Shown here: positions 24,908 through 25,333 of the stretch, piece by piece | How positions within the stretch are numbered: the stretch's first letter is position 1 | How the letters are laid out: each line of letters opens with the position of its first letter | Source: a virus | Direction: 5' to 3' (one strand) | Virus record (IMG/VR): IMGVR_UViG_3300042879_001828 | Coordinates: 1-37,839 of that record | Length of the DNA stretch: 37,839 bases | Made by a program: the position numbers and the translations under genes | The notes under the pieces: generated by a model | What the model saw: the letters and a program-made list of their open reading frames with translations, nothing else | Told to the model about the DNA's origin: nothing | The model's database searches: none

Positions 24908-24932
24908 AAAAAAATCGTAGCTAGGCTACGAT
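24908..24932 (-). terminator. Strong rho-independent terminator of the minus-strand RNA
   Basis: Perfect 8-bp stem ATCGTAGC / GCTACGAT with a 3-nt loop, followed on the minus strand by six or seven U residues (24914-24908). It gives the polarity of the structured RNA upstream of it. Confidence 0.88.
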
Positions 24933-25333
24933 GTGGGGTGTTTTCATCTGAGTTGACCACCACACAGCATCAGAACTACAACAACATCTGTGCTTTGCAA
25001 CACAGGAAATGTAACGCAGGCGGTTATCCGGTACCTACTCATCCAGTCTTTCATACAACGGCGGGCTATATCGGTGATGCTGTCCTCCAATATAACCGTG
25101 CGATATCACTATCGCGTCTTTTTACCCATAATACCTGTTCAAACAATCAAACCGCGGGATTGGCGGTCTACGTCCTGTCAAGGATAGTGATTGAGTTCTC
25201 GTAACAGCGTCGAGGTTCCATTCCCTGTGACCCGGCGGTCCAGTTTTAGGGCATCCGAAATTAGGCCGATGCTAGCCATTAACTGTTTAAATGTTTGCCT
25301 GAAGATTGCGCAAGTATGCGATGCGTCGCTGTA
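24908..25333 (-). ncRNA. Candidate large structured non-coding RNA, class unknown
   Basis: About 425 nt with clearly higher G+C than its AT-rich neighbours and no believable reading frame. Long-range complementary segments include ACAGCGTCG (25204-25212) with CGTCGCTGT (25324-25332, one mismatch); ATCACTATC (25105-25113) with GATAGTGAT (25183-25191); CGC-ag-GCGGTTAT (25015-25027) with ATAACCGT-GCG (25092-25102); ACCGC/GCGGT (25151-25167); GCATC/GATGC (25251-25272); and GACC-CGGC-GGTC (25229-25240). It starts within 2 nt of the GIY-YIG stop codon and ends at a strong terminator, so it is probably the 3' part of that late transcript or processed from it. It does not look like tRNA, tmRNA or a group I intron. 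Large ornate phage RNAs (GOLLD, ROOL) are a possible comparison, not an identification. Confidence 0.6.

Follow-up and report, generated by a model that had tools for sequence, protein, structure and literature searches.

A structured RNA of about 575 nucleotides in T4-like phages and Burkholderiales mobile elements that contains the Polynucleobacter-1 motif

Covariation among homologues indicates that the minus strand of a 37.8-kb linear virus record (IMGVR_UViG_3300042879_001828, 37,839 nucleotides, hereafter the window) encodes a real, structured RNA of about 575 nt. As judged from its homologues, the RNA is widespread and unstudied, with occurrences in many water-dwelling T4-like phages and in mobile elements of Burkholderiales. 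The Rfam model RF01718 (Polynucleobacter-1) represents only its first quarter, the 5' domain; what was reported in 2010 from freshwater Burkholderiales as a 141-nt probable leader is thus the beginning of a much longer RNA. New here are the RNA in its full length, a pseudoknot, the occurrence in many phages, the fixed gene partners and a twin sequence motif.

The window carries genes for a T4-type capsid, a portal, a prohead protease and a late sigma factor. The original prediction, made from the letters alone, placed a large structured RNA of unknown class at 24908-25333, in a GC-enriched island without a credible reading frame. The composition is as described, with a G+C content of 0.45-0.48 in the island (24.9-25.35 kb) vs 0.27-0.35 in most neighbouring segments; only spurious ORFs of 88 and 65 aa, both on the plus strand, cover it, and the complementary arms on which the prediction relied are present. 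Folding energy by itself would not have sufficient weight to establish an RNA there. The minus strand has a folding z-score of -1.75, a moderate to weak excess that 5 of 100 shuffles equalled, and the plus strand (z 0.34) folds no better than its shuffles. This modest z-score is what speaks for a reading with no RNA at all, in which the arms arose by chance or the region is a decayed coding sequence. Covariation far above both controls in three alignments and the E-value of the Rfam match argue against that reading, which we regard as almost certainly wrong; decay of a coding sequence, the outcome that the prediction had named as fatal to it, is ruled out by that covariation.

A scan against Rfam returned one family above threshold, on the minus strand. 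RF01718 (141 nt) matches at 25141-25277 with 111 bits against a gathering threshold of 37 (cmscan), with an E-value of 1.9e-23 over the window and model positions 1-141 complete, and what had been held unassignable to any class thus has in part a known one. When 24650-25800 was scanned at E<=10, the only other hit was a sub-threshold match to a CRISPR repeat. Membership is further supported by the consensus helices, which form and covary in two alignments (helices 1-5 of an alignment of 33 RNAs, and a second alignment of 5' domains). The original description of Polynucleobacter-1, from Burkholderiales and from freshwater and estuary metagenomes, regards it as probably an RNA and probably cis-regulatory (Weinberg et al. 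2010, PMC2864571), and our literature search found no other paper discussing it. The 5' domain shares sequence and secondary structure with the whole model. However, the Rfam model ends at 141 nt and lacks a pseudoknot, and where the 2010 table lists Burkholderiales, fresh water or estuary and a probable cis-regulatory role, the RNA described here is common in phages and, in the window, has no same-strand gene downstream. Convergent genes come next instead of the gene expected from the proposed cis-regulatory position; that position was a proposal of the authors of RF01718 and not a sequence criterion of the family. The RNA and its surroundings in the window are as follows.

25794-27572, minus strand: SbcC-like (gp46) gene, upstream, in conserved phage synteny
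25334-25765, minus strand: SegE-type GIY-YIG nuclease gene, 143 aa, directly 5' of the RNA (PF19835, 8.4e-29)
24755-25329, minus strand: full-length non-coding RNA, about 575 nt (homologue alignment and covariation; putative 5' end)
25141-25277, minus strand: RF01718 Polynucleobacter-1 core, the 5' domain
25251-25277, minus strand: pseudoknot, GGC 25277-25275 with GCC 25266-25264 (covariation, RNAalifold)
25272-25268 with 25255-25251, minus strand: helix P1, interleaved with the pseudoknot
24943-24953, minus strand: twin motif copy 1 (m1), ACUC-AGAUGAA (concerted variation with m2)
24908-24932, minus strand: hairpin AUCGUAGCCUAGCUACGAU followed by a U-run, terminator-like, in the window's clade only (m1-m2 spacing)
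24892-24910, minus strand: conserved hairpin UUUGCCC..GGGC(A/G)AA between m1 and m2
24869-24879, minus strand: twin motif copy 2 (m2), AUCU-AGAUGAA (concerted variation with m1)
24778-24829, minus strand: long stem of the 3' domain, the apex of which aligns with the conserved GAGCG-n-AGCGAA apex of relatives (3'-domain alignment)
24755-24773, minus strand: 3' terminal hairpin GUGUGCGAAGCACAC, with strong covariation in relatives
24472-24690, plus strand: 72-aa ORF, convergent, bounding the RNA on its 3' side, where relatives have matching sequence
23624-24466, plus strand: T4-type baseplate hub gene, convergent, in conserved synteny (PF12322, 2.2e-13)

Homologues were drawn from viral contigs, two bacterial MAGs and whole genomes. 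The alignment of 33 RNAs has 13 helices with 70 pairs; 91.3% of cells are paired, and 36 of the pairs show changes on both sides. None of 500 shuffles scored as high on four of the five measures, and three of 500 did so for pair types. Shuffling leaves relatedness in place; sliding the alignment by 1-3 columns also keeps it, yet pairing then falls to 35-42%. As the structures were partly derived from the same sequences, which favours them over the slid versions, the double changes weigh more than the pairing percentages. Helices 6-13 lie outside the Rfam model, so that structure also extends beyond the Rfam part. Pairing was 93.1% in a second alignment, which comprised the 5' domains of 18 phage and bacterial RNAs. 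The three-pair pseudoknot that it revealed is paired in 98% of cells, with both-side changes in nine cells, and it also appears in the RNAalifold result; these observations support it as a real element that is absent from the Rfam consensus structure. Among 22 phage 3' domains (88.8% paired), the hairpin between the motifs (92.9% paired), the long stem and the terminal hairpin (93.6% paired) covary, and seven of the eight pairs of the terminal hairpin, helix 13 of the 33-RNA alignment, have double changes.

The RNA extends well beyond the island. Whether bacterial copies are compared with one another or with those of phages, conservation continues far past the Rfam model, and it spans about 25329 to 24755, so the original boundaries were too narrow. 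The bacterial copies have a TAAATA box in common immediately ahead of the RNA, and from these copies we place the putative 5' end at about 25329; the terminal hairpin is the likely 3' end. The two large stems that had been seen just beyond the island exist, but instead of being separate they make up the 3' domain of the same RNA. Likewise, the hairpin and U-run (24932-24914) that had been taken for a textbook terminator closing the RNA are present on the minus strand but are unlikely to mark its true end. No hairpin precedes the U-run in most relatives, where it instead forms the 5' arm of the hairpin UUUGCCC...GGGCAAA and conserved structure, with covarying stems, goes on for about another 100 nt or more; termination there is thereby rejected as the general end of the RNA. 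The spacing between m1 and m2 is 75-80 nt in the window's clade vs 50-66 nt in other phages, and partial termination is possible in this clade, which has the extra hairpin before the U-run. Altogether the earlier observation is partly confirmed: a structured phage RNA is there, as covariation attests, with other bounds and a partly known class. The bacterial RNAs (e.g. L117:3709-4253) contain a conserved Shine-Dalgarno-like block, AUAAAAGGAGAC, that is absent from the phage RNAs.

A covariance model of the RNA (R1) detected 33 further phage loci at E<=2e-21 among 100 phage sources, with no weaker match up to E 0.1 in the same sources. To avoid picking loci by gene, we also scanned with a gene-independent RNA pattern, which yielded at least 119 stretches. 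Among the matches listed, 77 of 80 RNAs are preceded on their own strand by a SegE-type GIY-YIG gene, typically 33-80 nt from the start of the RNA core, and two of the three RNAs lacking it have no room upstream. In 32 of 42 loci the stop codon of this gene is found between -2 and +6 nt relative to the beginning of the core, which leaves no room for a usual intergenic promoter and makes co-transcription or an intragenic promoter likely. On the other side, a convergent baseplate gene is found downstream in 46 of the 80 scanned phage loci, again among the matches listed; the 72-aa ORF at 24472-24690, which related phages also seem to conserve, is probably a genuine small late gene. The GIY-YIG domain fills almost the whole 143-aa protein, with invariant Y22, Y33, G35, E109 and N126. 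PHROG phrog_447 and many phage records label this protein 'NAD synthetase'; PF19835 and the motifs show that the predicted product of 25334-25765 is a GIY-YIG nuclease-like protein.

Some phages possess a homologous GIY-YIG gene without the RNA: it was not found in the eight isolates with such a homologue that we inspected, and blastn found no isolate phage that carries it. The window may stem from a jumbo phage: contigs with the RNA are up to 354 kb long and, among isolates, the closest SbcC homologues are those of the jumbo phages PA5oct, Phosso and Atu_ph07. R1 had no match in these three phages, where the related SbcC is present.

In bacteria the RNA has different neighbours. RF01718 is present in 20 of 186 genomes of one genus, which we take to be Polynucleobacter. 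All 30 bacterial copies have a gene for DUF6641 (PF20346) directly upstream in divergent orientation and no recurrent GIY-YIG neighbour. A short tyrosine recombinase (about 190-230 aa) follows on the strand of the RNA in 24 of the 30, and four of the six copies without it are close to contig ends. Three more gene families are each found in 20-23 of 28 loci; one encodes an AAA ATPase similar to clamp loaders. The recombinase and the repeated copies point to an integrative element. In one locus (L064), two units 8.92 kb apart are identical over more than 6 kb and differ in cargo. The Burkholderiales element (L024, L025, L064, L102-L128) comprises DUF6641, the ncRNA, the short tyrosine recombinase, two unknown proteins and the clamp-loader-like AAA ATPase, with variable cargo including an AbiEi-like gene (L113). 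It has apparently not been described so far, and our literature search found no paper mentioning DUF6641. The RNA was not found on plasmids, nor DUF6641 in viral contigs or phage records, and a single-sequence structure model of DUF6641 reached a pLDDT of 38.5, too low to be informative. These bacterial elements offer settings in cultivable hosts in which to study the RNA without uncultured phages.

The gene neighbourhoods bear on whether the RNA acts in cis, as a 3'-UTR element of the GIY-YIG mRNA in phages and as a recombinase leader in bacteria. It adjoins the GIY-YIG gene, a recombinase gene lies downstream in the 24 bacterial loci, and the 2010 study scored the RNA as probably cis-regulatory (PMC2864571). 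Nevertheless, only convergent genes follow the window RNA, which therefore is not the leader of a downstream gene. In bacteria the recombinase is separated from the RNA by a variable stretch of some hundreds of bases to more than 1 kb, in which other genes sometimes lie. Furthermore, the size and complexity of the RNA exceed those of typical cis elements, and the covarying terminal hairpin of the 3' domain suggests a discrete RNA end. We consider a cis-regulatory role rather unlikely.

The most unusual feature of the RNA is a pair of short motifs, ACUC-NNNNRAA and, 50-80 nt later, AUCU-NNNNRAA. The 6-7-nt copies in m1 and m2 are equal within an RNA and different between RNAs in all 129 non-redundant phage RNAs, which fall into six classes; the best of 20,000 shuffles gave 53 agreements. 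On a tree of 80 RNAs built from the 5' domain alone, with the motifs left out, the motif class changed at least 22 times. The positions of m1 are the most informative about the same positions of m2, and vice versa. The bacterial RNAs form seven classes, and their copies agree except in L114 and L123/L126. Neither the RNA itself nor about 500 nt upstream of it showed an enriched complement of the motif. Identity without complementarity points to a partner outside the RNA that both copies share, or else to a process at the DNA level by which they are kept equal; we favour the former but cannot prove it. That the copies have been kept equal through so many changes is an unusual constraint, which makes a binding partner directly testable.

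Forced identity of two direct repeats is characteristic of exchange sites, and the two motifs might accordingly be read as cleavage or exchange sites of a ribozyme, or of an RNA descended from a homing-endonuclease intron or capable of self-processing. The neighbouring protein is of the homing-endonuclease type, and a genuine group I intron sits beside one DUF6641 locus. Such an origin is nonetheless very improbable in our view, since no Rfam intron or ribozyme family matches at E<=10, the RNA lies between genes and interrupts none, and the motif copies are just 50-80 nt apart. Group I introns in particular are ruled out: RF00028 has no match at E<=10, and the same model detects the intron of L043, which served as a positive control.

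It is tempting to speculate that this is a stand-alone scaffold RNA of about 575 nt that acts in trans and presents two equal docking sites to one partner, a reading that we prefer and would put at a little under an even chance. Transcription of the GIY-YIG gene would probably run on into the RNA, which the stop codon touches in most relatives, and the RNA would then act in trans. The conserved 5' domain, with the pseudoknot and P1-P5, and the long stem of the 3' domain would form the scaffold, and m1 and m2, with the same lineage-specific 7-mer, would dock either two molecules of a single partner or two sites on it. The leading candidate for this partner, or for a processing factor, would be the neighbouring protein, a minimal GIY-YIG protein in phages and DUF6641 in the bacterial elements. 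No protein is common to the phage and bacterial settings, which weakens the case for an obligate protein partner, and the RNA may occur in both simply because it is mobile.

Alternatively, the RNA might form a ribonucleoprotein with the adjacent GIY-YIG protein, which would bind and process it, the RNA supplying or positioning the substrate in the manner of TnpB or IscB and their omega-RNAs. In those systems the ORF of a RuvC/HNH nuclease abuts a structured RNA in a mobile context, and the RNA provides a guide. The window resembles them in that a nuclease ORF physically adjoins a structured RNA, there in mobile elements and here in a phage. The abutting stop codon and the linkage in 77 of 80 of the matches listed fit such a partnership, as does the size of the protein, which, being nearly all GIY-YIG, probably has little room for a separate DNA-binding domain; a twin motif varying in concert is also what an aiming element could produce. 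However, the adjacent nuclease belongs to the GIY-YIG family PF19835 and there is no RuvC or HNH nuclease; no variable segment of guide length was found, and the motif classes are few. Moreover, the RNA also occurs without this nuclease, in the bacterial copies with DUF6641, and isolate phages have GIY-YIG homologues without the RNA. We consider this ribonucleoprotein unlikely. It is quite improbable that, in addition, the twin motif sets recognition in the phage complex and DUF6641 takes the corresponding role in the bacterial integrative element. If true, this would be a nuclease-RNA pairing outside the RuvC/HNH lineages.

GOLLD and ROOL are large, ornate, phage-encoded RNAs of no known function, and the 3' part of GOLLD is conserved, its 5' part less so (PMC12286853). 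The likeness to GOLLD and ROOL that had been proposed holds for size and lifestyle, and, as in GOLLD, conservation is higher in the 3' part of the RNA than in the 5' part. It does not extend to sequence or model matches, nor to location: GOLLD and ROOL lie near phage tRNA genes, and no tRNA gene was found in the window. In addition, the window RNA is tied to a specific protein gene, a link that we have not seen reported for GOLLD or ROOL, and its fixed gene partners give a handle on function that those RNAs lack. OLE RNA is likewise a structured RNA of about 600 nt with protein partners (PMC12286853, PMC12054373). Unlike the window RNA, it occurs mostly in Gram-positive bacteria, and its Rfam model is unrelated. 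Assignment to GOLLD, ROOL, OLE, a riboswitch or an intron is ruled out by the lack of covariance-model matches at E<=10.

The family also appears to be modular, with one 3' domain combined with differing 5' domains. A set of phage loci (L134, L140, L142, L144, L149, L150, L151, L179, L180, L182 and L192) shares the 3' domain and the twin-motif region but has a different, unrelated-looking 5' domain, which R1 does not match. Weak matches to the 3' domain in L256/L257 come from an iterated profile and are not relied on; an iterated-profile count of 66 of 82 gaps includes self-training and is not used as evidence.

Near some DUF6641 genes lie other RNAs or candidate RNAs. The group I intron of L043 (59 bits, positions 791-1004, minus strand) lies 3' of the DUF6641 gene on the same strand, and L058 is similar. 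In five loci (L057, L063, L064, L070 and L071) the space between DUF6641 and the recombinase holds another conserved non-coding stretch, distinct from the present RNA, without an Rfam match at E 0.5 in the loci scanned and without a match to R1. This stretch, which follows a small ORF starting MNKYKNFKDDALTADW, contains the complementary blocks AATATGACGGCTAATG and CATAGCCGTCGT and is a candidate for a second ncRNA family.
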